Positions 37,772 through 55,300 of a stretch of 64,000 bases of DNA are shown piece by piece. Positions within the stretch are counted from its first letter, which is position 1; each line of letters starts with the position of its first letter. Below the pieces are notes generated by a model. It had not been told where the DNA came from. It worked only from the letters and a program-made list of their open reading frames with translations, and ran no database searches. The translations under genes were made by a program, and so were the position numbers. The stretch lies in assembly GCF_007748175.1 (NCBI RefSeq), contig NZ_CP037422.1, positions 4,334,327-4,398,326 of the forward strand, written 5' to 3'. The stretch comes from Gimesia aquarii (GTDB taxonomy: Bacteria; Planctomycetota; Planctomycetia; Planctomycetales; Planctomycetaceae).

Positions 37772-37803
37772 TCATACTTCTCACTCAAGGCACATTAAAA
37801 CAC

Positions 37804-38922
37804 ATGAAAATCGAACAAATCATTTGTCAAATTCTCAGATCAGGTTCCGTCACGAATAAGACAGCCAGTTGCCAGGATTCGGTTCTAGTTCGCATTAAAA
37901 CCGACAACGGCCTGGAAGGCATTGGTGAAGCTGATTCTTCACCAGAAGTCGTTAAAGCAGTGATCGACGCTCCCTATAGTCACAATGTTGCGTGTGGATT
38001 AAGAGAATTACTCATCGGAGAAAACCCACTCGAAACAGAACGACTCTGGCAGAAAATGTATCGCCACACAATGTACTTTGGCAGAACCGGTGTAACGATC
38101 ACCGCAATGGCTGCGATCGACATGGCACTTTGGGATTTAAAAGGAAAACATTTTGGTGAACCGATCCACCGACTTTTAGGTGGACAACATCATACGGAAT
38201 TTCAAGCCTATGCTTCGATTCTGTTTGGGAGAGATGGTCGAGAAACGTGTGACATAGCACAGCGCTGGACTGAAAACGGATACACGGCTGTGAAATTTGG
38301 TTGGGAGCCGATGGGAGAATCGGAAAAGCTTGATATCGAACTTGTTGCTGGTGCCCGTGAAGGAATGGGAGATGGCATATTATTGATTGACGCAGGTTGT
38401 GTCTGGGACGCCCGAACTGCATTGCAGCGCGCACATGCATTTTCTGAATATAATATTGGCTGGCTTGAAGAACCCCTCTTCCCCCACGATATCGCTGGCT
38501 ATGCCTGGCTCAAAGATCGTTCTCCAGTTCCCATTGCTGCTGGCGAAGAAGAATGTGGTCGTGAGTCATTCCGACCTTATTTTGACCAAAGAGCACTTGA
38601 TGTCTACCAAATTGATCTGGCTCGTAATGGGTTTACCGAAGCCTCTTATCTGAAACAAAGAGTCGCTGAAATCGGTGCACGCCCTTGTAACCATTGTTAC
38701 ACCAGCCCAATCACCGTTGCAGCCAGCCTACACTGGTTGGCCACCTGCAAAGATGCATTCATCTTCGAAGACTGTGTGGAAGACGAGCCTCTCAGACACG
38801 AGTTAACTTATGAGAAAGTACAAGCGGAAGACGGCATGATTCAAGTCCCAGATAGACCAGGGCTCGGGATCACGCTCAATGAAGATTTCATTGCAGCCCA
38901 CGTCGTTGCAGAGTCAAAATAA
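37804..38922 (+). CDS. Mandelate racemase / enolase superfamily enzyme
   Basis: A 372-residue enzyme. An N-terminal capping domain is followed by a TIM barrel. Likely catalytic or metal residues: Lys in VKFGWEP, Asp in LLIDAGCVWD, Glu in WLEEPL, Glu in AAGEEECGR, and the late His region RPCNHCYTSP. The superfamily abstracts a proton alpha to a carboxylate (sugar-acid dehydratases, racemases, cycloisomerases). The neighbours (zinc deacylase, symporter, FCD regulator) favour catabolism of a carboxylated compound. The specific substrate is not determinable by eye. Confidence 0.85.
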   Translation: MKIEQIICQILRSGSVTNKTASCQDSVLVRIKTDNGLEGIGEADSSPEVVKAVIDAPYSHNVACGLRELLIGENPLETERLWQKMYRHTMYFGRTGVTITAMAAIDMALWDLKGKHFGEPIHRLLGGQHHTEFQAYASILFGRDGRETCDIAQRWTENGYTAVKFGWEPMGESEKLDIELVAGAREGMGDGILLIDAGCVWDARTALQRAHAFSEYNIGWLEEPLFPHDIAGYAWLKDRSPVPIAAGEEECGRESFRPYFDQRALDVYQIDLARNGFTEASYLKQRVAEIGARPCNHCYTSPITVAASLHWLATCKDAFIFEDCVEDEPLRHELTYEKVQAEDGMIQVPDRPGLGITLNEDFIAAHVVAESK

Positions 38923-38965
38923 AGTCCACAAATGATTTCCTCCCTCAATTAGTAGAATCAACATC

Positions 38966-40000
38966 ATGTCTCAAACACCAATTCGAACAAAGATTGATTT
39001 CGACAAGCCAGGAACTCAATGGGGTACTCTCAATATTCCCTTCTCTTATAACTTAAGTGGTTGGTCACAGCTGCAAATACCGATTTCTACAATTGCACAT
39101 GGAGAAGGGCCAACAGTTCTATTAATGGCAGGCAATCACGGCGATGAGTACCCGGGCCAGATTGCCATTATGAAATTAATGCAATCACTGAAATTAGAAC
39201 AGATTTCCGGTCGCATCATTTTTATCCCCGCTATTAATATTCCGGCTGCAAAAGCGGCAACCCGTCTCTCTCCCATTGACGGTAAAAACTTAAATCGCTG
39301 TTTTCCCGGTGATGCAGATGGAACCGTTTCCGAAATTATGGCACATTATCTGACTCACGAAATCTTTCCTCTCGTTGAGGTCGTAATAGATCTACACACG
39401 GGCGGACGAGGGGTCTATTTTTATCCGTGTGCTCATATGCATCTGGTAGAAAATCTGGAACAACGTCGCCGAATGGCGTTGGCAACTGAAGCTTACAATA
39501 CAGATTTTGCTTTTCTGTATGCAGATATTGCTGGAAAAGGTCTTTTACCAGTCGAAGCTGAAAACATGGGAAAAACCGTGGTCACAACAGAAATGGGAGG
39601 CGGCGAAGTCACTACGGCTCCCGTGCATCAAGTCTCACAAGCAGGATTACGTAACGTATTGGTTCATCTGAAAGTCCTGCAGGGAGAGGAAAAATGTCGT
39701 ACAGATTTAGGACTCCCTCCCACACGATGGGTGCAGGCTCTGAATGCAGAAGACTACATTTTTGCACCAGAGTCAGGTCTCTTTGAAAGCTTCGTGGATG
39801 TGGGATCTGAGGTCTCCGAGGGACAGCCACTGGGAGCGCTCTATTTTCTTGAACGTCCAGACCGTAAGCCATCAATTATTGAAGCGAACTCGAACGGGAT
39901 TGCCATCGCCCATCGTGGCCCGACTCTGACCAGTCAGGGAGATATTGTTTTCTGTCTGGCTCATGATGTTGAAGAACAAGTGCTGAAAACATTTCAATAA
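38966..40000 (+). CDS. Aspartoacylase/succinylglutamate-desuccinylase-type zinc deacylase
   Basis: A 344-residue M14-like hydrolase. The zinc site is recognisable: GNHGDEYPGQ (His and Glu ligands, first motif) and VIDLHTGG (second His). A C-terminal domain contains FESFVDVGSEVSEGQPLGALYF, which is the biotinyl/lipoyl-like hammerhead found in DoeB-type deacetylases. Relatives remove an acyl group from an amino acid (AspA, AstE, DoeB). The position between the enolase-type gene (43 bp) and the symporter gene (34 bp) suggests it releases an acyl group from the imported compound. Confidence 0.85.
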   Translation: MSQTPIRTKIDFDKPGTQWGTLNIPFSYNLSGWSQLQIPISTIAHGEGPTVLLMAGNHGDEYPGQIAIMKLMQSLKLEQISGRIIFIPAINIPAAKAATRLSPIDGKNLNRCFPGDADGTVSEIMAHYLTHEIFPLVEVVIDLHTGGRGVYFYPCAHMHLVENLEQRRRMALATEAYNTDFAFLYADIAGKGLLPVEAENMGKTVVTTEMGGGEVTTAPVHQVSQAGLRNVLVHLKVLQGEEKCRTDLGLPPTRWVQALNAEDYIFAPESGLFESFVDVGSEVSEGQPLGALYFLERPDRKPSIIEANSNGIAIAHRGPTLTSQGDIVFCLAHDVEEQVLKTFQ

Positions 40001-40033
40001 CAGAATACTGTTTCAACACCAGGAATGAGACAC

Positions 40034-41701
40034 ATGAGTTGGCTGGATTGGGTTATCGTTTTCGTTCTGAATGGATCGGTTATCGGTTTCGGATTTTATC
40101 TGGCCCGGAGTACCAAATCCAGTAGTGATTGGTTTCTGGGAGGACGTTCACTTCCCTGGTGGGGTCTGGGCCTCTCAATTTTCGCAACCAGTATCGATAA
40201 TGCAGACGCCGTTTCACTGACCGGATATGCGTATAACCATGGCATGCATATCATCACAGCCTTTACACTAGCGAGCGTCTGTGGAGCAGTTCTGGCCTCA
40301 TTTTTAGTTGTACCCGTTCTCTATCGAGGCGGTTTTTTTACTAACGCCGAGTATCTGGAAACACGGTATGGAAAATCGATTCGAACTATCAGTGCACTCA
40401 TACAAATCCAGTACAGAACCAGTATGTTAGGTCTGATGATCTGGTCTATTTACTTGATGCTACAAGGGATCCTTGAGTTTTCACCCATTCAATGTTGGAC
40501 TTTAATTGTACTGCTGGTCATTTTTACCGCTGCCTATACAACCTGGGGAGGCCTGACCTCTGTTGTCTGGACTGATGCATTGCAAAGCCTGATCATGATG
40601 GCGGGCGGCATCACCATTTTCTGTGCAGTCTGGATGGCCAGCGGAGGTTGGTCTGCCGCTATTGAAAAGCTATCTCAGTCAACGGACGCGAAAGGACAAC
40701 CTCTGATTAACTGGTTACACATTGGTCAGTTTCAAGACAGTCAATCTACGTCTCCCTACTTGATTGTAATCGGCTGGACTATTGTGGGTCTTGGTTATTA
40801 TACCGTCAATCATACACAAACCATGCGTCTCATGGGGGCGCGTTCCCTGTGGGATATGAAAATAGCAACGCTCTTTGGTTGTCTGCTCATTATGCCCATC
40901 ATGATCGGAACGACATTAATGGGAGTCATGGGGCGTGTTCTAGTTCCCGAATTCACAGAACATTCAGGTGCTGACCAATTATTCCCCTATTTTGCCAATC
41001 AGTTTTTAGCCCCTGGCTTTAAAGGGCTGGTTGTAGCTGGAATTCTCTCAGCTGCAATCAGCACATTTGACTCAATTGGATCAGCTTTATCAGCACTCTT
41101 TACACGTGACATCTATGCTCGCTGGATTTGTAAAGATCAAACCGAAAAACATTATTTGGTAGTCACACGTTGGGCCACCATCGGTATCCTGCTGATGGGA
41201 TTTCTCTACATTCCTTTCATCGTTCGCTATGACAATATGATTCAAGCATTTCGTACTTTAATTCCCATTTTCGTCACACCATTGTTTACGATCTATTTAT
41301 TAGGAGTTCTGACACAAGTCCCTCGTCAAAGTGGTCTCGTTGGTCTCATTGCCGGTTCTCTATTTGGATTATTCGGCTTCATTGATCGCGAATTCGTGGA
41401 CCTCGAATGGCTCAGTCCCCTTCTGACTGAAAAATGGTATGCCTTCCCCTGCTCTATGATTGTAACGACCGTCGCCATGTTCGCCGCGGCTCTTAAGTGG
41501 GGATGGTTAAAAAAAGAAGTACCCTCAGAAAAAGACATGAAATTATCAAAGCACAATTGGTTATCTGAAAGTCGCGAGTCCCTCCCCAGAATCAAAGATA
41601 CACCATTTTCAAAACCACTCCCGCAGTACTTAAACCCAAACTGGTATGCAAGCCTCTTAGTGATGTTATCATTCTGGATTATTTTTGGCTTGTTCTGGTA
41701 G
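40034..41701 (+). CDS. Sodium:solute symporter (SSS family)
   Basis: A 555-residue protein with about 12-13 membrane segments. SSS hallmarks are visible: FLGGRSLPWWGLGLSIFATSIDNADAVSLTGYAY in the first segments, TTWGGLTSVVWTDALQSLIM in the middle, and LVVAGILSAAISTFDSIGSALSALFTRDIY, the family signature. It uses a sodium gradient to import a solute such as a sugar, acid or amino acid. I chose ATG 40034 because AGGA lies 9 nt upstream; another ATG lies at 40025. As the last gene of the run from 32353 it is the probable transporter of the operon's substrate. Confidence 0.88.
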   Translation: MSWLDWVIVFVLNGSVIGFGFYLARSTKSSSDWFLGGRSLPWWGLGLSIFATSIDNADAVSLTGYAYNHGMHIITAFTLASVCGAVLASFLVVPVLYRGGFFTNAEYLETRYGKSIRTISALIQIQYRTSMLGLMIWSIYLMLQGILEFSPIQCWTLIVLLVIFTAAYTTWGGLTSVVWTDALQSLIMMAGGITIFCAVWMASGGWSAAIEKLSQSTDAKGQPLINWLHIGQFQDSQSTSPYLIVIGWTIVGLGYYTVNHTQTMRLMGARSLWDMKIATLFGCLLIMPIMIGTTLMGVMGRVLVPEFTEHSGADQLFPYFANQFLAPGFKGLVVAGILSAAISTFDSIGSALSALFTRDIYARWICKDQTEKHYLVVTRWATIGILLMGFLYIPFIVRYDNMIQAFRTLIPIFVTPLFTIYLLGVLTQVPRQSGLVGLIAGSLFGLFGFIDREFVDLEWLSPLLTEKWYAFPCSMIVTTVAMFAAALKWGWLKKEVPSEKDMKLSKHNWLSESRESLPRIKDTPFSKPLPQYLNPNWYASLLVMLSFWIIFGLFW

Positions 41702-41765
41702 ACAGAGTTTAAAGAGTACAATATCTATGCTCAGAGGAAGTATGAAAAATAATATTGAGGTCGGC

Positions 41766-42170
41766 TTACTGTCCGATTTGCGTTTCACTTCGCAACAGGT
41801 TACCACGATTCAACAGTTCCTCCGTAGGTACCACGACTTTAGGTTGTAACTGGTACGTAAATTCATACCGATTTGTCACCTCAAACGGAAGCAGGTTATC
41901 AGAAACGGCATCCAGCGGAAAAACCTGGTACCAAGGCGTTTGCACTTTTTGCATTATGGTCTGCGTTTCGTAGCCATCTTTCGTCAGCGTGATCTCTCTT
42001 GTAGCATAATAAGTAAAATCGACTGATGTCGGTGTATACCCAATCTCTTCTCCATCCACTTTCACAAGTGCTCCAGAAGGAACTGAGCGGATTGTCATTC
42101 TCCGGTGCACGCAGCCGAACTGACCGAAGGTTATTAAGACCAACGCTACCACGAGTACCCCACGTTTCAT
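41766..42170 (-). CDS. PEGA-domain lipoprotein
   Basis: A 134-residue lipoprotein. The signal is MKRGVLVVALVLITFGQFGC, with a lipobox FGQFGC and lipidated Cys near residue 20. A PEGA domain follows: MTIRSVPSGALVKVDGEEIGYTPTSVDF and REITLTKDGYETQ. PEGA domains are small beta structures found in envelope proteins and usually bind or support other surface components. The ATG at 42170 is preferred over the longer frame because it puts the signal peptide at the N-terminus. Convergent with the symporter gene. Confidence 0.8.
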   Translation of the reverse strand: MKRGVLVVALVLITFGQFGCVHRRMTIRSVPSGALVKVDGEEIGYTPTSVDFTYYATREITLTKDGYETQTIMQKVQTPWYQVFPLDAVSDNLLPFEVTNRYEFTYQLQPKVVVPTEELLNRGNLLRSETQIGQ

Positions 42171-42717
<547 letters not shown>

Positions 42718-42847
42718 CTTATTTTTTCTATCGCGCCAATTTCTTATGTTGGCTTAATGTCGCTTTCTAACGGTAGGAACAGTAAAATTGTGAGCCTGTA
42801 CGGCCATAACACAATTACCTTCCGAGGAAACTTCGAGGCTCTCAGCA

Positions 42848-43450
42848 GTGATTCATCCCTTCCTCCAAGGTTTTTTCGAAAACCCAAAGCAAGTTGCATC
42901 GCTTGTACCGAGTTCAAGTTATTTACAGAACAAGCTGAGTTCACTTCCCTGTTTTCAGACAGCTCAATTTGTTGTCGAACTGGGACCAGGAACGGGTGGA
43001 ACAACGGCAGCACTACTCAGAGCAATTCCGCGATCCTCTTGCCTGCTCTGTGTGGAAATCGTCTCAGATTTTGTTGATCAACTTCGACAAATCTCTGATA
43101 AGCGGCTATATGTAGAAGAAGGATCTGCTTTTGATCTTGAAATATTACTGAAACATTATGATTTTCCACCTCCCGATGTGATTGTATCAGGCGTTCCCTT
43201 TTCCAATATGACGTCTGCAGAAGGCCGAAAATTGATTGAGAGCATACACTCTGTTTTGGCTCCCGGCGGTACTTTCGTAACTTATCAGTTTCGAAATCGA
43301 GTATGTGAACTGGCAGAAAATTACTTTGGTTCACCCCAAAGTAAGTCTTTTGTCCTCTGGAACATTCCCCCACTGGGAATCTATCAGTGGAAAAAAACGC
43401 CAGCCATACCATCCAGGAAAGAAGCTTACAATAGCCAAACCACCATCTGA
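42848..43450 (+). CDS. SAM-dependent methyltransferase, PmtA/KsgA-like
   Basis: A 200-residue class I methyltransferase. Motif I is VELGPGTGG (near residue 44), followed by an acidic strand CVEIVSDFV, and VIVSGVPFSNM, where the N/DPP-like motif resembles phospholipid N-methyltransferases and rRNA adenine dimethylases. The N-terminal FFENPKQVASLVPSSSYL is typical of the PmtA-like short enzymes. It starts at GTG 42848, the first start codon after an in-frame stop. A phospholipid head-group (phosphatidylethanolamine) methylation role is likely but not proven. Confidence 0.75.
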   Translation: MIHPFLQGFFENPKQVASLVPSSSYLQNKLSSLPCFQTAQFVVELGPGTGGTTAALLRAIPRSSCLLCVEIVSDFVDQLRQISDKRLYVEEGSAFDLEILLKHYDFPPPDVIVSGVPFSNMTSAEGRKLIESIHSVLAPGGTFVTYQFRNRVCELAENYFGSPQSKSFVLWNIPPLGIYQWKKTPAIPSRKEAYNSQTTI

Positions 43451-43825
43451 TACTTTGTTCCATGCTTGCATATAAAACACTTATTTTACTCGAAATAAAG
43501 AGTAGGTAATTATGGACTGAATAGAAAAGAGCTGAAAGTCATTCATCAAACTCTGACGCTTTCGATTAACATGAATGATCTCACGGATTCCCTAAACCTT
43601 CTTGTTCACGTATGTATCTAATCCGTTTTTGAACATCGTCATTTTTCTAGTACCAATCCGCGATGCTCTTCGATTTCGGATCACCTTTTCTAATTACAGA
43701 CTGTAAATCAAAAACACTGAAAACTTACGATTTTCTGAAATCCCCTGTCCCATTTGCTCTAATACTAGTGTACATTAAAGAATGTGTTCTAAGAGCTCTG
43801 ATAAGATTATTTGGTGATATAACCT
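43451..43825. other. Intergenic region before jetA
   Basis: About 375 bp separating the methyltransferase from the Wadjet-like operon. It probably contains the operon promoter. No direct repeat of the tRNA-Pro 3' end or mobile element was seen here. Confidence 0.4.
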
Positions 43826-45310
43826 GTGGAATTGGACCGACTCAATACATTTTTTTCGACGAACCCATCGGCGAAATTACTTCGTGCGACTCACTCAGCG
43901 TACGTAATTCACTTCCTGAACCAACATTTCAAAGTAGATGGAAACCTCGCTACACCTCATTCCAAAATTCAGCAACAACTCAATCACTATCTGGAACAAA
44001 TCCACGAAAGAGAACCAGAAATCCTGCGAGAGAGTGCTGACGCTTATCTGACACAATGGTCTACCGGTGAGACTCGATGGTTACGGCGTTATTTTGATTC
44101 CCAACACGCGGAATCGGTCTTTCAACTGACCCCCCACTCAGAAGATGTATTAAAGTTTCTCACGGAAATGATGGACCGTTCTCTAGGTTTTGTGGGAACT
44201 GAATCGAGGCTGACGCGAATTATCGGAACACTTTCAGATATTGTGGTTCGGGGGTCTGCTGACCGTGAACGACGTCTAGAACATCTCCGCGCTGAACGCG
44301 ATCGCGTTGAGAATGAAATTCGCTCGCTTGAATCAGGAGACGTCGTTTCAACTCACAGTTCCACGGCCATTCGAGAGCGATTTGCAGATGCCATTTCTGA
44401 TCTCATTTCACTACAAGGTGACTTTCGGGCTGTTGAAGAATCGTTCAAATCTATTACCCGCGATGTCCAGAAACAGCAAACGGAAGCGATGGAGACTCGG
44501 GGTCAGATTCTGGGATTTGCACTCGACGCAGAAGATCGACTCAAGGAAGAAGATCAGGGAGCCAGCTTTATAGCTTTTGTCGACCTTCTACTCTCACAAT
44601 CGCAACAAGATGAACTGGAAAAAATTATCATTCAATTAGAAGAGATGGTTGAACTGGAATCACAAACAGAAGGAAAAGATCGCGTAAAACGTATGATAAG
44701 CAGCCTGTCTCTGGAAGCAGAACGTGTGTTGAACACCACACGCCGATTGAATTCTACACTGCGCAGGCTTCTGGATTCAAAAGTGAGTTCGAGTCGACTC
44801 AGGTTGGCTTCCGTGCTGCGTGAAATCCAGGCAGCAGCGGTGCGTCAGGCAGAACAACCTCCTGAATTAGGCATCAATGTTTTTACCGAACTAGATTTGT
44901 ATCACGGTTTGGAACGCCCCTTCTGGCAACCCCCGGTCAAATTTGATGCGATCGAAATCACGCATGAAGAACCGGACGACAAAGCGCGATTCGACGCATT
45001 TCGAAATCTTGCCGAGATGCAACGTCTTGATTGGGATACCATGCGGTTTAATATTGCCAGTCAGGTTCAGTTTACCGAACGATTGCCTCTTTCAGATTTA
45101 TTGGAAACTTGCCCGCCAGTAAATGGCGCAATAGAAATGTTGGGTTACATTCAAATTGCACATGATGAAGGTCATGAGGTAGATGAAAACTCAGTCGACG
45201 TTGTTTGTATCGATACTGAACACGGACTGCAGGAATTCGAAATTCCCCGAGTTTTCTTTCTATCAGAAACACTGCGAAGACGTTCCGGGCTGAGGAGTAG
45301 CACCATATGA
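43826..45310 (+). CDS. jetA: Wadjet JetA-like protein (DUF3375)
   Basis: A 494-residue DUF3375 protein, the kleisin-like subunit of type I Wadjet anti-plasmid SMC complexes (MukF/MksF-like role). N-terminal SAKLLRATHSAYVIHFLNQHF fits the family's first helix pair; QWSTGETRWLRRYF and SVFQLTPHSEDVLKFL follow, and the centre (about 145-340) is coiled-coil-like (DRERRLEHLRAERDRVENEI). The C-terminus PLSDLLETCPPVNGAIEMLGYIQIAHDEGH belongs to the winged-helix end. It starts at GTG 43826, the only start available after an in-frame stop. Its TGA overlaps the jetB ATG. Confidence 0.85.
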   Translation: MELDRLNTFFSTNPSAKLLRATHSAYVIHFLNQHFKVDGNLATPHSKIQQQLNHYLEQIHEREPEILRESADAYLTQWSTGETRWLRRYFDSQHAESVFQLTPHSEDVLKFLTEMMDRSLGFVGTESRLTRIIGTLSDIVVRGSADRERRLEHLRAERDRVENEIRSLESGDVVSTHSSTAIRERFADAISDLISLQGDFRAVEESFKSITRDVQKQQTEAMETRGQILGFALDAEDRLKEEDQGASFIAFVDLLLSQSQQDELEKIIIQLEEMVELESQTEGKDRVKRMISSLSLEAERVLNTTRRLNSTLRRLLDSKVSSSRLRLASVLREIQAAAVRQAEQPPELGINVFTELDLYHGLERPFWQPPVKFDAIEITHEEPDDKARFDAFRNLAEMQRLDWDTMRFNIASQVQFTERLPLSDLLETCPPVNGAIEMLGYIQIAHDEGHEVDENSVDVVCIDTEHGLQEFEIPRVFFLSETLRRRSGLRSSTI

Positions 45311-45888
45311 GTGATATTCCGGAGTTCCGTGAACGTGGTATTGTTGCGGTCAACCTGCTACAGGGAGTGATCTACGAGGAGCAAGCTGACCTCTGGTCTC
45401 TACTACTTAGTAATGAATCAGACTTAAGCGAGTATTTCTGTGAAATTGGACTGACACTGATAATCGACCGTACAGAGGGTATCGCCTACCTGCGCCAGTT
45501 TGGCGATGAGGAACGCACGGGAGGTTACGAACGCTTACCGCGTTTATTTAAGAAAACTCCTCTTAGTTATAAACCGACCTTGTTGTGTGTTCTATTACGT
45601 GAAGAGTATCGAAAATTTGAAGAGGAAGACCTCGACAACGAACGCTGTGTTATCGACGTCGACTCTTTGTTTGAACTTTGGAAATCCTGCTTTCCAGCAA
45701 ATTCAGATGAAGTGATTTTACGCAAACAACTCATCACAGCGTTAAATCAACTCGAAAAAATTAAATTTGTTGCTACTTTTAAAGAGGAACCCGGTTCATG
45801 GGAAGTCCGCAAACTATTGAAGGCACGAATTCCCATTGATGAGCTGGAACACTTGCGCGACCGGCTAATTGCAAATGAGCGCGAATAG
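45307..45888 (+). CDS. jetB: Wadjet JetB-like protein (DUF4194)
   Basis: A 193-residue DUF4194 protein, the MukE/MksE-like winged-helix (kite) subunit of the complex. LLQGVIYEEQADLWSLLLSNESDLSEYFCEIGLTLIIDRTEGIAYLRQ is typical of the family. It overlaps jetA by 4 nt (ATGA), which implies coupled translation, and ends 11 bp before jetC. It should bind the jetA kleisin and the SMC heads. Confidence 0.85.
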   Translation: MSDIPEFRERGIVAVNLLQGVIYEEQADLWSLLLSNESDLSEYFCEIGLTLIIDRTEGIAYLRQFGDEERTGGYERLPRLFKKTPLSYKPTLLCVLLREEYRKFEEEDLDNERCVIDVDSLFELWKSCFPANSDEVILRKQLITALNQLEKIKFVATFKEEPGSWEVRKLLKARIPIDELEHLRDRLIANERE

Positions 45889-45899
45889 GAAATCACTCC

Positions 45900-48800
45900 A
45901 TGCAACACTTATGTGACTTATGTCCTGATCGCCCCGGTTATCGATTACAGAAACTGGAGGTCTTTAACTGGGGAACTTTTGACAGTCAATCTGGAACTGT
46001 TTTTCGCTTTGAACCAAAAGGGCGAACGGCATTACTGGTTGGCCATAATGGTTCAGGAAAGTCCACTCTCGTAGATGCCTTACTGACTCTACTGGTAGAC
46101 GGTAAGACACGAAACTACAACGTAGCAGCAGGAGCGAAAAAAACCGAGCGTACACCCAAAAGTTATATTAAAGGTGCCTTTGATCGAACAACCGATGAAT
46201 CAAACTCAAATGTAGTAAAGTTTCTACGCCCACAAGGAAATCATCTGACGGCAATTTCTGCTGCATTTAGCGATGAACAATTGGGACGATCTTTCACATT
46301 GACACAAATACTGTATCTCAAAGCGGACGGAACTGATGATCGGGTTTATGCGATTGTCGATGAATCGCACGAATTGAAATCCGATCTACAAGGTCTGCAA
46401 AAATCTGATGCGGTTCGCGAGCATCTCAAACAACAAGGATACCAGACAACCAGAGCATATGCCGAATATCTGGGTTGGATCACCAAACGAACTCAGATGC
46501 GCAGCAAAGCCATTGATATGTTCAACCAGACGGTGGCAGTCAAGGATATCCAGAGCCTGAATGTATTCATTCGCAGACATATGCTGGAAGCTCAGAACTG
46601 GCATGATAAAGTACAAGGGCTGCTGAAGCACTTTAATGATCTGAGTATCGCACACAATGAGCTGGTTCGAGCTCAACAGGCACAGGAATTGTTACTTCCT
46701 GTTGAGCACATAGGCAAGAAATATCGTCAGAAAAATGAGGCATTAACTTTCTATCAGCATCAGCTGGATGCATCCGAGTCGTACTTCCCTCAGTTAAAAA
46801 TCTATATCTTTGAGCCGGAACTGATGGTACAGAATCAAAATCTGAAAACACAGGAAACTGTGATTAAGAGATTAGATCAGGAATTGGAACAGACACGAGA
46901 AACGGTACGACAGACAAAAAATGAAATCGAACATGCGGGCGGTGAACGACTGCGACAAATCCCCGGATTGATTCGGAATGAACAAACAAAGTTAGATTTT
47001 AAACGTGAGGCATTCCAAAAATATCAGAACAATCTAAAAACTTGTGGCATCAATGACATCGTAGGCAACGCGAAACAGTTCCAACAGATTAACAAACAAT
47101 TATGTGAAATATCCAAGTCAAATAGTGACAAACTAGTAGAGCTGAAAAACAGGCAAGAAACAACGCTTGGCCAAAAAGCGAGCATCGTAAGCCAACTGAG
47201 ACAGGAACGTGCTGATCTGGATATGCTACAAAAACAACATAGTAACTTGCCTGCTCGTTTTTCTACGATTCGCAGTCAACTCTGCGCCGATCTGGGACTG
47301 GATGAAAGCCTATTTCCTTTTGCAGCGGAACTGATTTCAGTATTGCCTGATCAACAGAACTGGACCGCGTCCATCGAGACGGTTCTCCGTTCGTTTGCTC
47401 TCAGCTTGCTGGTTGCTGAACAGTTTTATCCGCGTGTGCGAGACTATGTCGAAGGAAATCGCATTGTTGATGCACACGGGACAGGTCAACGACTGGATTA
47501 TTTGTGTGTTGGAAAAGTCACGGATTCAGCCGGTGGTGATCGAATTCATCCGCAGTCACTCTGCAATAAACTGCAATTTAAGCCGCGTCATAACCTTACC
47601 CCATGGCTACGAGCAGAAATTCAACAACGATTTAACTTTCACTGCTGTAATAGCATCGAAGAATTCAATGACGTTTCCAAATACGCCCTGACTGCACAAC
47701 GCCATGTCAAATACGATTCAAAGCGACATCAAAAAGATGATCGAGAACGCACAACAAACCCACGTTTCTTCGTATTGGGATGGGATAACACTGATAAGCA
47801 GAGTCGTATACGACATCATATTCAAGAACTCGAATCCGAAATCAAAATTCTGACCGATGAAATCATTTCAATTAATGACCAGATAGAAGAAATTCAAAAT
47901 ACGTTTCGAGCCGCGGATGCAGCCCTGGATATAAGTGACTTCGACAAGATCGATATCAAACGTCACCAAGATGAAATCGTTACACTTGAAGCAGAAAAAA
48001 AGAATCTGGAAGAATCGAATAAAACCGTACAAACGCTGCAAAAACGGTTGAAACGGTCAGAATCAGAGGAGCAGACACTCAGTGCAAAACGTGATCTATG
48101 TTTCGAGGAACGTGCAAAATTGAAGAGTGATATTAGTCGCGTCACTAAACTGGTAGCATTGGCTCACACTCAGCTACAGTCACAGCAGACAGCCGGTAAT
48201 TTTGACGTACATCACGAAATGTTTAAAACCATCGCTGAATCACTGGAAAAACCAGCTTTGTCGATTGAGAATTTTGAACAACGAATTCAAAGCTGGCGAA
48301 CTTCGACACAGAAGCAGATAGACAAATTGAGAAGTCCTTTAGAAAAAATCAAAGAGGACCTGATTAGTGCCATGTCAAAATATCTGCGCGATTTTAAAGA
48401 AGCAGCAAATGACCTCGATGCCTCTCTGAAATCACTCGATAGCTTCCAGGGTTTACTGGATCAGCTTCGCCTGGAAGATCTGCCCCGTTATGAACGCCAA
48501 TTCAAAAACCGGCTGAATGATCAAGTGAGCCAGGAAATCGCTCTGTTCAATACAGAACTCCGCACCGAACAAAAGTTGATCGAAGACAAAATCACTCAGC
48601 TTAATAACGCACTGAAGGATGTTGAATATTCACCTGGAACGTATATGCGATTAAAGCCTCATCCGGTAAATGACCGAGAAATCGAGGATTTTCGACGCTC
48701 GTTGCGTGAGTGTCTTGATGATTCTCTGGAACAGACTCCTGAGGCGAACGAAGCAAGGTTTGTGCGTATCAAAAATCTTGTCGAACGCTTGTCGGATAAA

Positions 48801-49307
48801 GAAAAAACGAATTGGAGAAAAAAAGTCATTGATGTTCGTAACTGGTACGACTTTGCTGCAGAAGAAATTGAGCTCCAATCAGGAATGACTCATAGTTGTT
48901 ATGATGGAAGTTCAGGTCAATCTGGAGGAGAGAAAGCCAAACTCGCGTTTACCATTCTGGTAGCCGCTTTAGCTTATCAGTTTGACATTGATCCAACAGG
49001 TAATGTTCCCGGCCGATTTCAATTCGTGGTCGTTGATGAAATGTTCTCCAAGGTAGATGACCAAAACGCCGAGTACGCCTTGAAACTTTTCAACCAGTTT
49101 GGGCTGCAACTTTTGATTGTGGCTCCTCTGGATGCCAAAGCCCGTGTAACAGAACCGTTTGTTGACCGATATCTGCACGTGGTAAAAGATCCTGAGACAA
49201 ATTGTTCAATTCTCCATAGTATGACAGCCCGCGAGTACGACGAAGTGGTACAGAAAGTCTCACACAACGCGAGACCAAAAGCGAATCAACAACAGATTAT
49301 GAAATAG
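45900..49307 (+). CDS. jetC: Wadjet JetC-like SMC ATPase
   Basis: A 1135-residue SMC-like ATPase. The N-terminal head has VGHNGSGKST at residues 47-56 (Walker A); long coiled coils flank a hinge in the middle (about 430-640); the C-terminal head has the ABC signature SSGQSGGEKAK near 1005 and Walker B FVVVDEMFSKVDD near 1045. C5-x2-C8 at the very N-terminus (LCDLCPD) is an added feature that could hold a metal. It matches the MukB/JetC group, which extrudes DNA loops. Following jetA and jetB it completes the SMC core. A JetD nuclease would be expected next, but the following frame is on the other strand and unrelated. Confidence 0.88.
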   Translation: MQHLCDLCPDRPGYRLQKLEVFNWGTFDSQSGTVFRFEPKGRTALLVGHNGSGKSTLVDALLTLLVDGKTRNYNVAAGAKKTERTPKSYIKGAFDRTTDESNSNVVKFLRPQGNHLTAISAAFSDEQLGRSFTLTQILYLKADGTDDRVYAIVDESHELKSDLQGLQKSDAVREHLKQQGYQTTRAYAEYLGWITKRTQMRSKAIDMFNQTVAVKDIQSLNVFIRRHMLEAQNWHDKVQGLLKHFNDLSIAHNELVRAQQAQELLLPVEHIGKKYRQKNEALTFYQHQLDASESYFPQLKIYIFEPELMVQNQNLKTQETVIKRLDQELEQTRETVRQTKNEIEHAGGERLRQIPGLIRNEQTKLDFKREAFQKYQNNLKTCGINDIVGNAKQFQQINKQLCEISKSNSDKLVELKNRQETTLGQKASIVSQLRQERADLDMLQKQHSNLPARFSTIRSQLCADLGLDESLFPFAAELISVLPDQQNWTASIETVLRSFALSLLVAEQFYPRVRDYVEGNRIVDAHGTGQRLDYLCVGKVTDSAGGDRIHPQSLCNKLQFKPRHNLTPWLRAEIQQRFNFHCCNSIEEFNDVSKYALTAQRHVKYDSKRHQKDDRERTTNPRFFVLGWDNTDKQSRIRHHIQELESEIKILTDEIISINDQIEEIQNTFRAADAALDISDFDKIDIKRHQDEIVTLEAEKKNLEESNKTVQTLQKRLKRSESEEQTLSAKRDLCFEERAKLKSDISRVTKLVALAHTQLQSQQTAGNFDVHHEMFKTIAESLEKPALSIENFEQRIQSWRTSTQKQIDKLRSPLEKIKEDLISAMSKYLRDFKEAANDLDASLKSLDSFQGLLDQLRLEDLPRYERQFKNRLNDQVSQEIALFNTELRTEQKLIEDKITQLNNALKDVEYSPGTYMRLKPHPVNDREIEDFRRSLRECLDDSLEQTPEANEARFVRIKNLVERLSDKEKTNWRKKVIDVRNWYDFAAEEIELQSGMTHSCYDGSSGQSGGEKAKLAFTILVAALAYQFDIDPTGNVPGRFQFVVVDEMFSKVDDQNAEYALKLFNQFGLQLLIVAPLDAKARVTEPFVDRYLHVVKDPETNCSILHSMTAREYDEVVQKVSHNARPKANQQQIMK

Positions 49308-49758
49308 GAATCTTCATACCTCTGGTCTCACCAGTGCAGATTGTGAAGTAAACGATAAAAGCATGTCCATGTTCTTAATCATTGAATCATATCATTTAGA
49401 CACGCCTACTTATCTTCTTAATTGAGACTAACTCAAATTATTGTGATCAATCAGTGCTCAAAGTGCTCCTAGATCATCAGAAACAGTATCGATCAGACTC
49501 ATGCCAATAGTGAATTCCACACTTTTCTGAGATTCATTCTAATTTTCCTTGTCTAGTTTGTACTAGCACCGAAAACGTTGTACCGACACTACCAGCGTAT
49601 TGTGAACACCACTTGGGGAATGTGCTTCTCGGAGATTATTGGTGAAAATCACTTGATATTAAGAGGGTAGAGATAATGAGTCAGCAGTCCTGAGATTTCT
49701 TTATACAACTCAGTGAAACGTTGAGTTGATTGACTTCACTCACCTCAAAAGCAATCGA
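49308..49758. other. Intergenic region where jetD would be expected
   Basis: About 451 bp with no frame resembling DUF3322/DUF2220 (JetD) on either strand. A hairpin CAACTCA / TGAGTTG (49706-49728, 9-nt loop) lies 30 bp beyond the end of the convergent PilZ-like gene and could serve either side as a stop. No IS or repeat was seen. Confidence 0.45.
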
Positions 49759-50187
49759 TTATTCATTCACCTTGCGAAGAAACTTGACGCCGTACTCCCA
49801 GAAATCAGCTTCTGGAAATTGCTTTTTGCGTACGATTTCCGAATGGAACCAAATGACTTTATCGTCTAAAACAGTAAGACCAACTAAAATATCTTTTCGA
49901 TCGATATCACCGGCAAAGAGAAAAGAAACACCAGATTGCGAAATAGACAAGCCTTGCACATTGATTGCCTCTGTGTCACAAAGATCAAGGACAGGATTTT
50001 CTGTAGGCAACAATATACTTAAAGTACCTCGAAAGGTTTTTCGTGTATGCGACCGTTGGCTTGCAAATTGGATCAAATTCTTTTGTTCGATTTTATCCAG
50101 AAGTGAAAAGATTCTCTCCACAGCTTGTTGCTGTGATTTGCTGGTCGCTACTTTTATATCTTGAATACTTGGATTGAGTGTTTGCAT
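49759..50187 (-). CDS. PilZ-like protein
   Basis: A protein of 142 residues from ATG 50187 (a GTG at 50262 would add 25 residues; neither has a good ribosome binding site). HTRKTFRG resembles the RxxxR and ISQSGVSF the D/NxSxxG motif of PilZ c-di-GMP receptors, and the C-terminal FWEYGVKFLRKV matches the end of many PilZ domains. The N-terminal helical part (AVERIFSLLDKIEQKNLIQFASQ) is a typical leader. Both key PilZ residue groups are only partly conserved, so c-di-GMP binding is uncertain. It is convergent with the jet operon. Confidence 0.55.
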   Translation of the reverse strand: MQTLNPSIQDIKVATSKSQQQAVERIFSLLDKIEQKNLIQFASQRSHTRKTFRGTLSILLPTENPVLDLCDTEAINVQGLSISQSGVSFLFAGDIDRKDILVGLTVLDDKVIWFHSEIVRKKQFPEADFWEYGVKFLRKVNE

Positions 50188-50899
50188 GGAGACAGTGCTT
50201 TCTAAGTTGTATCGTAGTATTGGTCCGTCGCTTAAAGTAATAGCTTCACTAACTCTATACACTCATATTTTCAGTAAATTTTTGAGGGAAATTCCTCAAA
50301 ACCAAGCGCAGTCGCTGGCATATTACTTTCATTAATTTTATTTGTTGTAACCCGCAATATAGGAAAATCCATAATTCATTTATTGCTGTGAGTGGATGTC
50401 TCATCTCATCACTCCCAATCAACCACGTCTGACTTCGCATACAAAAAGCGAATACAAAATGATCTGTCATAGTTAGAAATATACCTTGTTAATGAGATCG
50501 ATTCGTTCTCTGTATTCTCAACCACAGGTTCTAAAAGAGAACAATAGGACTGAGAGCCTCTAGCCAATTGCTGTGAATGAATCCACGTTTTTCCAGTCTG
50601 AGAAAGTTCAAAGAATATATCAGTAGTTTTCAATGATTTTCTTCCGTTATAGCAATACAAGATCGAACTGAACCCACTTAAACCACAACTTGACGTCTTT
50701 GACTTTACCTTCTTATAATCTCTCAGATTTCAACAAATCCCTTTTGGAACGAATAAGATAAAGATGCTGAATCAGCAGGGTCAAACCGATATAGTCATGC
50801 AGGAAGCACGTCTATTGTCCCAGCCGGAGGAATTCAGTAATTAGCACTCCCTCAGAGAGTACGAACCAAACCGACCGAAGCAGTGGTACTAACCCACGC
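50188..50899. other. Intergenic region before the MFS gene, with a hairpin at 50280-50301
   Basis: About 700 bp. An inverted repeat TTTTGAGG / CCTCAAAA with a 6-nt loop lies just upstream of the PilZ-like gene and may be an operator or terminator. At 50764 an ATG opens a 26-codon frame that ends at the start of the stretch leading to the MFS gene; GGAGG at 50826-50830 is followed by no ATG/GTG/TTG at usual distance, only ATT at 50840. Two minus-strand frames at 50409-50660 and 50255-50470 look spurious. Confidence 0.4.
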
Positions 50900-52129
50900 T
50901 TGAACTGGCTCAATTTTTTTGCGGCTGATGTTGGTGATGGCATTGGCCCCTTCATGGCCACATATCTGATTACGACATCTCACTGGAATGAGGCATCAAT
51001 CGGAGTATTTCTGCTCACTCTCAATCTGGCGACCGTTATCGCACAAACACCTTCCGGATGGCTGATCGACAATACGCGTTATAAGCGCTATCTCACAGCA
51101 GGCGCAGCATTGACGATTGCCATTTGTGTCTTAGTCCCTGCCTTTGCATCGGAAATGGCCCCGGTATTGATATCAGCGGCGATTCTAGGCTTAGCAGCAG
51201 CAGTCATACCTCCGGCAATCGCAGCGATCACACTGGGAATTGTAGGCCCCTCCGGACTCACAAAACAGACTGGCTCAAACCAGGCATTCAACCACGCCGG
51301 TAATCTCGTATCAGCCGTGGCAATTGGATTAGTTGGTACCTATGTCGTATCTTGGGGTGTCTCACCCATCGTCGCATTTCTGGCATGTAGTGCAGCAATA
51401 ATCGCTTTAATGATTCCTGAAAAGTCGATTGATCATACCATAGCCCGCGGTGGAGTTTCGAAAATTGAAAAGAATAATCAATCAGAATCAGAGCGAAGTG
51501 CCTTAGCATTGGTTTTTACAAATCGATCTCTTTTGATCTTTATGGTTTGTGTGGGAATGTTCCATCTCTCGAACGCAGCCATGCTTCCCCTTGCCGGGCA
51601 AAAGCTCGCGTTGGAACACAAAGAACTTTCCACACTCTATATATCCATCTGCGTTGTCATTGCTCAAATCGTCATGATTGGTATTGCCGTGCTTGTCGGC
51701 CTACGATGCGATCAGTGGGGGCGTAAACGTTTTCTACTCGTTGGCTTTGCCGTACTTCCTCTACGTGGATTGCTGTTTTCTCAAACCGAAAACCCATATC
51801 TCATCATGTCTGGACAGATTTTAGATGGCATCGGAGCTGGAATATACGGAGTCATTGTGATCCTTGTTGTCGCCGACCTGACGCGAGGCACAGGCGTATT
51901 CAACTTTGCAACAGGGGTCGTGATCACAATTCAAGGACTGGGTGCCTCCTTTGGCTCGTTTCTTGGGGAATGGTGGGCTGGAGAATATGGCTACAGTTCG
52001 TCATACGCACTCTTAACAGCACTAGGAGTAATCGCCTTGTTGATTCTAGCGGTATTAATGCCGGAAACTCATCCTGATAAAGTTAAACCTTCGCGATTCA
52101 ATTCTGGTAGGAGTCGGTCCACAACATGA
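50900..52129 (+). CDS. Major facilitator superfamily transporter
   Basis: A transporter of at least 409 residues with 12 predicted membrane segments. ADVGDGIGPFMATYL opens segment 1; the loop 2-3 motif is GWLIDNTRYKRY; the central linker between segments 6 and 7 is SIDHTIARGGVSKIEKNNQSESE. It belongs to the drug/unknown-substrate exporter part of the superfamily. The TTG at 50900 starts almost directly in segment 1; the frame stays open upstream to at least 50822, where GGAGG precedes an ATT at 50840. The true N-terminus may be longer. Its stop overlaps the next start by 4 nt. Confidence 0.8.
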   Translation: MNWLNFFAADVGDGIGPFMATYLITTSHWNEASIGVFLLTLNLATVIAQTPSGWLIDNTRYKRYLTAGAALTIAICVLVPAFASEMAPVLISAAILGLAAAVIPPAIAAITLGIVGPSGLTKQTGSNQAFNHAGNLVSAVAIGLVGTYVVSWGVSPIVAFLACSAAIIALMIPEKSIDHTIARGGVSKIEKNNQSESERSALALVFTNRSLLIFMVCVGMFHLSNAAMLPLAGQKLALEHKELSTLYISICVVIAQIVMIGIAVLVGLRCDQWGRKRFLLVGFAVLPLRGLLFSQTENPYLIMSGQILDGIGAGIYGVIVILVVADLTRGTGVFNFATGVVITIQGLGASFGSFLGEWWAGEYGYSSSYALLTALGVIALLILAVLMPETHPDKVKPSRFNSGRSRSTT

Positions 52130-53349
52130 CCACTTTTGTTGTCATCGTCTACATTATTGTCTATCTCAGTATGCTCTTGGGTGGTATTCCTGGGTTACGT
52201 GTCGACAGAACCGGTGCTGCGTTGCTGGGTGCTATTGCCCTCTTAGCTGTTGGAAATATTAGCGAACAAAACGCATTGGCCTCAATTGATGTCCCTACCC
52301 TCGCACTCCTGTTCGGATTGATGGTTGTCTCGGCACAATTTCAGCTGGGAGGATTCTACGGTATCGCAACAAAAAGAGTCGTTGCACAAGACATGTCTCC
52401 CCCGGCGCTCCTGGCTGTTGTGATTTCTCTTACAGGAGCCTTCAGTGCCCTACTCACAAACGATGTCGTTTGCCTGGCAGTCGCTCCGCTACTATCACAC
52501 CTCTGTATTGAAAAAAAATTGAACCCGGTCCCCTATTTGCTCGCCTTGGCATGTGCGGCTAATATCGGCAGTGCAACCACGCTTATTGGTAATCCACAGA
52601 ACATTCTCATCGGTGAAGCATTAAAAGTGCCATTCAATGGATACCTGCTTATCGCACTGCCTCCCTGCCTACTCGGGCTGCTCATCGTTTGGGGAATCAT
52701 CGTATCTCTATACCGCGGTAAGTGGCATTTCGAGACAGAAGCAAGTTTAGAAAACACGGAGATTGAGTTTGATCGTTGGCAGACCTTCAAAGGAATTCTT
52801 GTTTTAACACTATTAATCGCATGTTTTATATTCACAGCATGGCCGCGCGAATTACTGGCATTGGGTGCGGCGGGAATATTAATGCTCAGCCGAAAATTCC
52901 ATTCCCGGAAGATCATGGGGCTGGTCGACTGGTCTCTGTTGGTGCTATTTATCAGCCTGTTTATTGTGAATAAAGCGTTTCAACTTACCGGCGGTATGGA
53001 CTGGCTCGTCGCTCAGACCAAGTCCGCCGGCATCCCACTTGACCAACCGGCGCCGCTGTTTATCTCAACAGTGATTCTGGGAAATCTGGTTTCCAATGTG
53101 CCAGCCATCATGCTCTTGTTACCCATTGTCAAGGGAAGCGATGTGGGCCCGTTGCTGGCTCTCAGTAGTTCCCTTGCCGGTAATCTAATCATTGTAGGCA
53201 GTGTCGCCAACATCATTGTGGTTGAATCAGCAAGACAAGCTGGTATTAAAATCGACTTCAAGACGCATGCCCGCGTCGGTATTCCAGTAACTCTGGTAAC
53301 TCTTTCGGTAACAGGTGCCTGGCTTTGGCTGGTTAGTTTATTCAGCTGA
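52126..53349 (+). CDS. ArsB/NhaD-type ion transporter
   Basis: A 407-residue protein of the ion transporter superfamily with about 10-11 membrane segments. IASIDVPTLALLFGLMVVSAQF, TNDVVCLAVAPLL, IGSATTLIGNPQNILIG and GNLVSNVPAIMLLLP are the two repeated SNT/GNP-type motifs of ArsB, NhaD and citrate transporters. It may extrude arsenite or exchange sodium/protons or carry a carboxylate; no arsenate reductase or ArsR gene lies nearby, so arsenic resistance is not supported. ATGA overlap with the MFS gene indicates one operon. The downstream DoxX gene ends 1 bp away on the other strand. Confidence 0.82.
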   Translation: MTTFVVIVYIIVYLSMLLGGIPGLRVDRTGAALLGAIALLAVGNISEQNALASIDVPTLALLFGLMVVSAQFQLGGFYGIATKRVVAQDMSPPALLAVVISLTGAFSALLTNDVVCLAVAPLLSHLCIEKKLNPVPYLLALACAANIGSATTLIGNPQNILIGEALKVPFNGYLLIALPPCLLGLLIVWGIIVSLYRGKWHFETEASLENTEIEFDRWQTFKGILVLTLLIACFIFTAWPRELLALGAAGILMLSRKFHSRKIMGLVDWSLLVLFISLFIVNKAFQLTGGMDWLVAQTKSAGIPLDQPAPLFISTVILGNLVSNVPAIMLLLPIVKGSDVGPLLALSSSLAGNLIIVGSVANIIVVESARQAGIKIDFKTHARVGIPVTLVTLSVTGAWLWLVSLFS

Positions 53350-53757
53350 CTAAGTCATTTTTCTGATCGGAAGGACTCCCCAAAGTCGTTTCTCACGCAG
53401 ATACAAACCTAACCAGATAAGCACACCAATCGCGACTTGAATCATGAATGGATCACCTACGCGCCAATGAGTGCAGATCGCTCCGCCCATGTATCCAGTC
53501 AATAATATGGCACCAAGCACGGCCGTCCATGGAATCAAATAGAGCAGCACACAAAAAATTTCAAGAATGGCAAGCGGCAAGATCATCGACTCCGGCAATC
53601 CGAGTTTCTCCATCCCTTCAGCAAACTCGGGTCCCCCTTTGAGTTTCATCATTGCGCTCATTCCAAAAGCAAGTGCAACGAGAACCGAAACCACACGCCC
53701 GATCCAAATCATCACAGTCTGCGCAGTCGATGTCGGCTTTACTTCACTTTGATTCAT
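53350..53757 (-). CDS. DoxX-family membrane protein
   Basis: A 135-residue protein with four hydrophobic segments. GRVVSVLVALAFGMSAMMKLKGGPEFAEGMEKLGLPESMILPLAILEIFCVLLYLIPWTAVLGAILLTGYMGGAI is the DoxX/SURF4-like pattern. Biochemical role is undefined in most members. It lies upstream of the DGPF cluster end and is separated from it by 167 bp; the start ATG follows an AAAGGAAT stretch. Confidence 0.8.
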   Translation of the reverse strand: MNQSEVKPTSTAQTVMIWIGRVVSVLVALAFGMSAMMKLKGGPEFAEGMEKLGLPESMILPLAILEIFCVLLYLIPWTAVLGAILLTGYMGGAICTHWRVGDPFMIQVAIGVLIWLGLYLREKRLWGVLPIRKMT

Positions 53758-53924
53758 TTTTGATTCCTTTGAAAAACTTTATCGAAGTGTAACTCGCACT
53801 CTTTTGAATCGTTATATTTTTTATAACTCACAGAGTCAACTCGAAAGGTTCTTCGATTTTCAAAGTTAACTATCACAGGGATACTCCGTTCCTGGTCAGG
53901 TATACCCAACTAAGCGAAATTCCT

Positions 53925-54821
53925 TCAACTTGTTTCTGCAATGACTTCATCAGTAATATATGCAACCTTTTCCGTCATTGGATCAAAGGGGACCGAAACA
54001 TGTTCATGCACAACGCGCCACTCCCCTTCTGTTCTCTGGTAGCCGATCGTTATTCGCAACCAGGTCTGGCCAACCGGACTCTCTTCATCAATCGGTACGA
54101 CATGATGCAATCCGTGAGCAAAAGCCACATCTCCATCTACCGTGACTGTAAAATCACGATGCTCAGATTTCATCTTGGCCGGAAAATAAGGCAAACATGC
54201 TTCCCAGTTTGCACGATATGCTTCAAGCCCTTTGAGTCGGTAAGGCGGTTTGACATCATACAAATGAATGTCTTCCGAATAGCCTGTCAGCATAGCATCC
54301 ACGTCCTTAGACTCCAACGATTCTGACCAGGCTTTGGCAAGCGATCGAATCTCGTCTTCATCCTTGGAAGCTGGTATCCCCTGGGCATTACTGTTACGTT
54401 CCGCAACTTCTGTTTGAACTCGTTCTTCTTGTTCACGTGCTTCTGGTGTTAAGGCTTCACCAAAATCGTCGGCTTCAAACACTTGACGAATCTCGATATC
54501 TGAGTCTTCGGTCATCGGGTTAGGACAAGGACAACGTTTCACCCAATCAATGGCTTCCTGCATCGAGTTGACCTTCCAGAGCCAGAATCCGGCAATGAGT
54601 TCCTTAGTCTCAGTAAAAGGGCCATCGACAACAGTGCGATCCTTCCCCGAGAATCGGACTCGAACACCATTCGAACTCGGGTGCAGTCCCTCACCGGCTA
54701 GTAAAACTCCGGCATTTGACAATTCTTCATTAAAATTTCCCATCTCAGTAAGCAGTTGCTCGCTCGGCATTTCACCTGCTTCCGAACTTTTGGTCGCCCT
54801 TATAATTACCATGACTTTCAT
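53925..54821 (-). CDS. DGPF (YCII) domain fused to a SnoaL/NTF2-like domain
   Basis: A 298-residue protein. The first 115 residues are a YCII/DGPF domain (KVMVIIRATKSSEAG, VDGPFTETKELIAGFW, ADDFGEAL). After a linker (about 120-155) comes a SnoaL-like/DUF4440 fold (AWSESLESKDVDAMLTGYSEDIHLYDVKPPYRLKG, VAFAHGLHHVV, WRVVHEHVSVPF). GAGGAG lies 8 nt before the ATG at 54821; a longer frame adds 5 residues. It is the last gene of the ECF42-associated cluster. SnoaL domains appear as C-terminal extensions of ECF41 factors, so this is an unusual combination in an ECF42 cluster. Confidence 0.82.
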   Translation of the reverse strand: MKVMVIIRATKSSEAGEMPSEQLLTEMGNFNEELSNAGVLLAGEGLHPSSNGVRVRFSGKDRTVVDGPFTETKELIAGFWLWKVNSMQEAIDWVKRCPCPNPMTEDSDIEIRQVFEADDFGEALTPEAREQEERVQTEVAERNSNAQGIPASKDEDEIRSLAKAWSESLESKDVDAMLTGYSEDIHLYDVKPPYRLKGLEAYRANWEACLPYFPAKMKSEHRDFTVTVDGDVAFAHGLHHVVPIDEESPVGQTWLRITIGYQRTEGEWRVVHEHVSVPFDPMTEKVAYITDEVIAETS

Positions 54822-54913
54822 CGGTTTTCTCCTCATCTATTAAAAACTTCGTGTCACCATGTTCTTGGGACAGAAAAGACAAACTACGATTTTCTTACAC
54901 CGAAAAAAATTTG

Positions 54914-55300
54914 TTACAGAACAAAATCCGAATCCGCCTTGGATTCCTGGTCAGGCAAATCAGGTAACTCGACAAGGGGTCGAATCTCAACGGTCCCCTT
55001 TTTAGCTGGTGGTAGTCGGCTTGCCACTGTGATTGCCTCATCCAGATTCTCGACGTCAATCACATAGTATCCACCGAGCTGCTCAGTCGTTTCGGCAAAT
55101 GGTCCATCAGTCACCAGTCGTTTGCCATTCCGAATTCGAACACTGGTTGCCATCTCAACAGAATGCAAAGGAGACGCTGAAAGAAACTTACCCTGCTTGT
55201 CCAACTCATGACAGACTGCAGTTGAATCTGACATACATTGCTCACGCTCGTCTTGTGTCCAACCACTTTCGGCACTGTAGATCAGTAACATGTATTTCAA
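54914..55300 (-). CDS. DGPF (YCII-related) protein
   Basis: A 128-residue YCII-related protein. It begins with the conserved KYMLLIYSAESGW from a TTG start codon at 55300; no ATG lies upstream in the frame at a suitable place, and the family N-terminus fits exactly. The DGPF motif is [20 protein letters not shown]. The fold is a dimeric ferredoxin-like domain with no proven enzyme activity. Third of four paralogues in this operon. Confidence 0.85.
   Translation of the reverse strand: MKYMLLIYSAESGWTQDEREQCMSDSTAVCHELDKQGKFLSASPLHSVEMATSVRIRNGKRLVTDGPFAETTEQLGGYYVIDVENLDEAITVASRLPPAKKGTVEIRPLVELPDLPDQESKADSDFVL

Follow-up and report, generated by a model that had tools for sequence, protein, structure and literature searches.

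A type I Wadjet JetABC core with a remnant of jetD in Gimesia aquarii

The window analysed here, a stretch of 64,000 nucleotides from the genome of Gimesia aquarii (G000; a single 7.2-Mb contig, 99.79% complete), contains at 43826-49307 a complete type I Wadjet JetABC core and no jetD. A short remnant of the 5' end of jetD lies behind jetC, both here and in the sister genome G002. We consider it probable that the operon is what remains of a type I Wadjet, an SMC motor without its nuclease. Its function would be either that of an accessory organiser of the chromosome in the manner of MksBEF, alongside the cell's own SMC, or that of a factor that blocks small circular DNA without cutting it. The features referred to below are as follows.

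43826-45310, + strand: jetA, kleisin, DUF3375, 494 amino acids, GTG start (open reading frame, Pfam, PADLOC)
45307-45888, + strand: jetB, KITE protein, DUF4194, 193 amino acids (open reading frame, Pfam, PADLOC)
45900-49307, + strand: jetC, SMC ATPase, 1135 amino acids (open reading frame, Pfam, PADLOC, PDB sequence search)
46041-46064, 48921-48932 and 49023-49043, + strand: Walker A, signature (SGGE) and Walker B motifs of JetC, all intact
49308-49758, no strand: 451-bp region at the position of jetD in relatives, no gene
49316-49369, + strand: jetD 5' remnant, 18 aligned codons with an in-frame TAA at 49349-49351 (alignment to the JetD of relatives; also in G002)
49759-50262, - strand: downstream gene with a borderline PilZ match (Pfam, 22.1 bits, just below the cut-off of 22.5), outside the Wadjet system

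The JetABC core and the jetD remnant

A preliminary description of this DNA had named the three genes as the jetA-jetB-jetC core of a type I Wadjet, and Pfam, PADLOC and PDB sequence matches agree with it. JetA matches DUF3375 (257 bits), JetB matches DUF4194 (122.9 bits) and JetC carries AAA_29 and SbcC_Walker_B domains together with the ATPase motifs, as in type I Wadjet systems; the fourth component of such systems, a JetD with DUF3322 and JetD_C, is missing from the operon. The best PADLOC models are JetA1 (320 bits), JetB1 (144 bits) and JetC1 (1023 bits), and JetC scores only 38.5 bits against the best type II model. A PDB sequence search matched JetC to the JetC of the solved JetABC complex (E = 3e-65), the matches to that complex being weaker than the Pfam and PADLOC assignment to type I Wadjet. 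The genes are tightly packed, jetA and jetB overlapping by 4 nt and jetC following jetB after 11 nt. A canonical SMC is encoded at a separate locus of the genome (879 bits) and JetABC is therefore not the only SMC complex of the cell.

The absence of jetD next to jetABC, noted in the preliminary description, extends to the whole genome: the profile search suggested there gave no match to JetD_C (PF09983) or DUF3322 (PF11795) anywhere in G000, and among 14 control genomes C. glutamicum alone matched both families. JetD_C was likewise without a match in G002, and the JetD proteins of 10 relatives, compared with the whole 64-kb window, gave a best E-value of 0.017 that was located within jetC. 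Of the explanations offered earlier, a jetD encoded elsewhere thus finds no support as far as JetD-family proteins are concerned. Loss of jetD is directly supported by a stub with a premature stop in two sister genomes and by G011, G012 and G031, the closest relatives after these, which carry complete JetABCD operons.

Behind jetC, 451 bp precede an unrelated minus-strand gene, as had been described. The interval was said to lack a coding frame, which is correct, but it does hold the degraded 5' end of jetD. The stub translates as IPLVSPVQIVK*TIKACP and aligns with MPLVSPEEIADKVAKAYP of the G012 JetD; its position is that of the jetD start in G011 and G012, where jetD overlaps or touches the end of jetC. 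The stub scores 42-46 against the JetD of these two genomes, a score that was reached by none of 5000 shuffles and by none of 20,000 random 120-mers taken from outside the stub (maximum 33-37). Against the more distant JetD of G031 the scores are weaker, at 31 and 35, and out of 5000 shuffles 8 and 4 respectively scored as high. Plain tblastn did not detect the stub significantly, with a best E-value of 0.57 for G002 and no match for G000; the case for the stub rests on position and score combined. As the same arrangement with the same TAA is found in G002, jetD was lost before G000 and G002 diverged. The rest of the 451 bp shows no further similarity to jetD. Promoter and terminator scans returned no more candidates than did shuffled sequences. 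The interval between jetC and the PilZ gene is 169 bp longer in G002; a suspected 31-bp direct repeat at this indel was dropped, only 13-15 of 31 bases matching. The most economical history would be a single deletion in the common ancestor of G000 and G002 that left about 54 bp of the jetD 5' end.

An attempt to bound an acquired segment around the operon by empty-site synteny failed, both at the loci of homologues of the upstream methyltransferase gene and at those of the downstream transporter. The methyltransferase gene (42848-43450), upstream of jetA, matches the OlsG ornithine-lipid methyltransferase model at 74.8 bits against a cut-off of 350; apart from that of G002, its strong homologues in the genus are 61-66% identical. 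At 10 loci with such homologues none of 13 other genes from window positions 37804-55300 had a match nearby, and these loci are not syntenic; beside eight homologues of the transporter there were only matches of 23-46% identity, to three genes that lie before position 37800 of the window. Among 72,556 plasmid records JetC found 17 matches, all below 60% identity; in 11 of them the query is covered to at least 80%, with 32.3% for the best.

Recurrence of jetD-less loci in the phylum

In a sample of 59 relatives, JetC-like matches were present in 13 genomes, the genome of the window included (G030 with a score of only 20.7 bits). Nine of the 13 have a JetD_C match, and in all nine jetD lies directly 3' of jetC; the four without are G000, G002, G029 and G030. 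JetA was then searched for in 170 family genomes and 393 phylum genomes (overlapping sets), giving 34 loci over the cut-off in 31 genomes and 11 further loci, 45 in all. We counted the 33 loci at which jetA-jetB-jetC are intact and the contig continues past jetC, the jetB genes of G145 (by tblastn) and of G009 having been located separately. The 12 excluded loci comprise contigs ending in or before jetC (G092, G078, G081, G122, G496 and G416), a JetA that is partial or fragmentary in the match tables (G121, G138 and G367) and broken operons (G001, G106 and G384). This synteny comparison, which had also been suggested in the preliminary description, places jetD next to the core in 23 of the 33 loci and finds it absent in 10 (G000, G002, G029, G073, G074, G076, G184, G513, G154 and G145).

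JetC motifs are kept at all 10 jetD-less loci, and nine of these genomes have no JetD_C match anywhere, G145 among them being only 86% complete; the exception is G154, with two matches elsewhere in its genome. A search for jetD remnants at G029, G073, G074, G076 and G184 found none that was convincing (best E 0.024). A remnant is thus seen in G000 and G002 only, and for the other lineages loss is deduced from the tree. Replacement effectors were sought 3' of jetC in G029, G073, G074, G076, G184, G513 (two genes) and G154, and no nuclease was found: the genes there match MetW, BD-FAE esterases (two genes), no known family (one gene), SBP_bac_5, cytochrome c' below the threshold, GFO_IDH_MocA and NACHT-WD40, and no conserved partner is shared by the scanned loci. 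The IFDR motif at the JetB N-terminus, named in the available text of PMC10586767 and followed here as a lead for a mark of JetB-JetD contact, is missing from at least three jetD-bearing loci (G507, G292 and G482) and kept in most jetD-less JetB proteins. G075 has a gene for a Uma2-family putative endonuclease between jetC and jetD (L089 5675-6241).

The JetC tree requires at least seven changes in jetD presence, all forced by well-supported branches, in two runs of which the second omits the three most distant rows; the JetA tree gives seven changes, six of them forced, with long-branch warnings. In the 23 complete loci, distances between JetC proteins correlate with those between JetD proteins (Spearman 0.87; as high in none of 1000 permutations), as expected if jetD was ancestral and was then lost. 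One of the seven changes, that of G154/G145, may be a relocation of jetD and not a loss; since jetD is possibly encoded apart there, six lineages are clearly jetD-less. Several relatives thus appear, on the evidence of these trees, to have lost the nuclease independently in the same way. Judged by eye, the JetA branches of G029, G073/G074, G076, G184 and G513, that is, of five jetD-less lineages out of seven, are longer than those of their jetD-bearing relatives, those of G000/G002 and G154/G145 not being so; the JetC tree leans likewise for G073/G074, G076, G184 and G513, with G029 intermediate. The kleisin is described as the nuclease-binding subunit in C. glutamicum (PMC10123090, available text), and longer JetA branches would fit a relaxed or altered constraint on it.

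Split and partial loci also occur. In G001, of the same genus, jetA is intact and 97% identical in protein to that of G012, jetB is truncated (L080 8650-10432), no jetC is present in the stretch and a C-terminal fragment of jetD lies about 32 kb from jetA (L081 5924-6469); in G384, from the phylum, jetC is truncated. G154 has an intact jetD of 396 amino acids alone on one contig (L109 2749-3939) and jetABC on another (L106 8182-13990), an arrangement that may reflect either a split Wadjet or an assembly artefact; its second JetD copy (L110) lacks an internal part. G014 carries, beside an intact Wadjet, two degenerate JetD_C fragments of about 65 codons with three stops each (C1:4191849-4192043 and 6812119-6812313). 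JetD_C without any JetA match was found in five of 170 family genomes (G105, G129, G135, G157 and G168); in four of these the match is partial (38-80 bits), and the G157 match is interrupted by a stop, with no N-terminal part in its best alignment. An intact motor without the nuclease was thus encountered more often than an intact nuclease without the motor.

Constraint on jetABC and alternative explanations

JetA, JetB and JetC are of equal length in G000 and G002 and their genes differ by 20, 12 and 160 substitutions, with no stop codon and no indel; when the same 192 changes were placed at random a mean of 9.6 stops arose, and none of 2000 simulations was free of stops. The dN/dS ratios (NG86) are 0.20 for JetA (0.07-0.54), 0.20 for JetB (0.04-0.85) and 0.10 for JetC (0.07-0.15), the bounds for JetA and JetB, which have few changes, being wide yet below 1. 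Open frames and low dN/dS together indicate continued constraint on the motor after the loss of jetD. Three jetD-bearing pairs gave, for JetA, JetB and JetC, 0.073, 0.092 and 0.105 (G011/G012), 0.07, 0.09 and 0.21 (G019/G020a; JetC 0.208) and 0.08, 0.10 and 0.09 (G075/G071; JetC 0.088). The JetA and JetB values of G000/G002 are two to three times those of G011/G012, a comparison with few changes and wide bounds, and there may have been a slight relaxation of these two subunits. Among neighbouring genes of G000/G002, nine of ten comparable ones lie at 0.01-0.12, and the PilZ gene at 0.32. Synonymous divergence between the two genomes is uneven along the operon (jetA 0.035, jetB 0.056, jetC 0.17), which hints at recombination.

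These data bear directly on the view that the operon is a decaying relic, which lost its function with jetD and drifts with its frames still open because the loss was recent. The decayed Wadjet loci of G001 and G384, the mildly raised ratios of JetA and JetB and the longer JetA branches in other jetD-less lineages would be in keeping with this. However, the loss predates the split of G000 and G002, the substitutions that followed have left every frame open where drift would have placed several stops, and JetC is as constrained as in G011/G012. Low ratios are also found in the jetD-less pairs G073/G074 (0.10-0.13) and G154/G145 (0.02-0.04), for which dS is near or above 1 and the loss is undated; for JetC, G073/G074 (0.129) lies above G075/G071 (0.088), yet the highest value of the three belongs to the jetD-bearing G019/G020a. 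We therefore regard a relic as unlikely.

Less likely still is that JetABC continues in plasmid defence with a nuclease unlike JetD that is encoded elsewhere. Separate encoding may occur, as the different contigs of jetABC and jetD in G154 indicate, but neither JetD family has a match in G000, and at seven other jetD-less loci Pfam identifies the genes behind jetC as unrelated enzymes, a solute-binding protein or a NACHT-WD40 protein, or does not recognise them. An overlooked jetD, hidden by assembly or annotation, can be set aside almost entirely: nothing was found in its favour, and it is already contradicted by the single, nearly complete contig of G000 and by G002, also one contig, with the same arrangement and stub.

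A probable nuclease-free Wadjet motor

We therefore favour retention of JetABC as a motor without its nuclease. For the complete system it is proposed that JetABC extrudes DNA loops and that JetD is triggered once a small circle has been extruded in full (PMC10586767, available text). With jetD deleted in the ancestor of G000 and G002, the JetA kleisin, the JetB KITE protein and the JetC SMC ATPase would remain and probably continue to assemble into a complex that extrudes loops at the expense of ATP; cutting of circular DNA would be expected to be absent, so that plasmid restriction by cleavage is predicted to be lost, and loading and extrusion may persist. Such a complex would most likely serve as an accessory chromosome organiser of the MksBEF kind or as a non-cutting silencer of plasmids and other small circular DNA. 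In C. glutamicum, non-chromosomal DNA is reportedly the only target of the complete MksBEFG (PMC7083940, available text), which counts against the first of these uses. The preliminary description had also considered an SMC core working without a nuclease; selection has indeed kept jetABC, and its cellular function is so far a deduction.

Among known systems, the operon resembles type I Wadjet (JetABCD/MksBEFG) in having all three subunits of the SMC core, in the order and close packing of their genes and in its best PADLOC models, and differs in the reduction of jetD to a 5' stub. With P. aeruginosa MksBEF it shares an SMC, a kleisin and a KITE protein encoded in one operon without MksG/JetD, but here the sequences are those of a type I Wadjet and the loss was recent enough to leave a remnant. 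By profile models, on which this comparison is based, JetB scores 45.6 bits with the MksE Pfam family against 122.9 with DUF4194, which, with the PADLOC assignments, speaks against closeness to MksBEF. MukBEF, like several members of the Wadjet group, is without MksG/JetD, and MksG-less operons were included in a survey (PMC7617805); complexes of this kind are thus already known (PMC7617805; PMC10586767), and a published proposal connects the MukBEF/MksBEF condensins with Wadjet through nuclease loss (PMC10586767), as far as the available text of these papers goes. No title or abstract opening retrieved for Gimesia or planctomycete Wadjet and missing JetD mentions this operon or a jetD stub. 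In the titles and text available to us, we did not find a loss with a remnant, the measured constraint after it or its recurrence within one phylum.

We suggest, tentatively and with rather less confidence than we have in the motor itself, that loss of the nuclease is a repeated route from Wadjet to a nuclease-free SMC motor with a new role, taken at least six times in one phylum, and that this operon, with a fossil of jetD beside a motor that selection maintains, represents a living intermediate stage on the path suggested for MksBEF and MukBEF. Two sister genomes sharing one loss, together with relatives that retain JetABCD, offer a replicated natural comparison for a non-cutting Wadjet motor. 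Where jetABC by itself is taken as a sign of Wadjet, plasmid defence can be overestimated, since in our sample no jetD adjoins 10 of the 33 intact cores. The operon also bears on how the chromosome condensins MukBEF and MksBEF relate to the anti-plasmid Wadjet systems.
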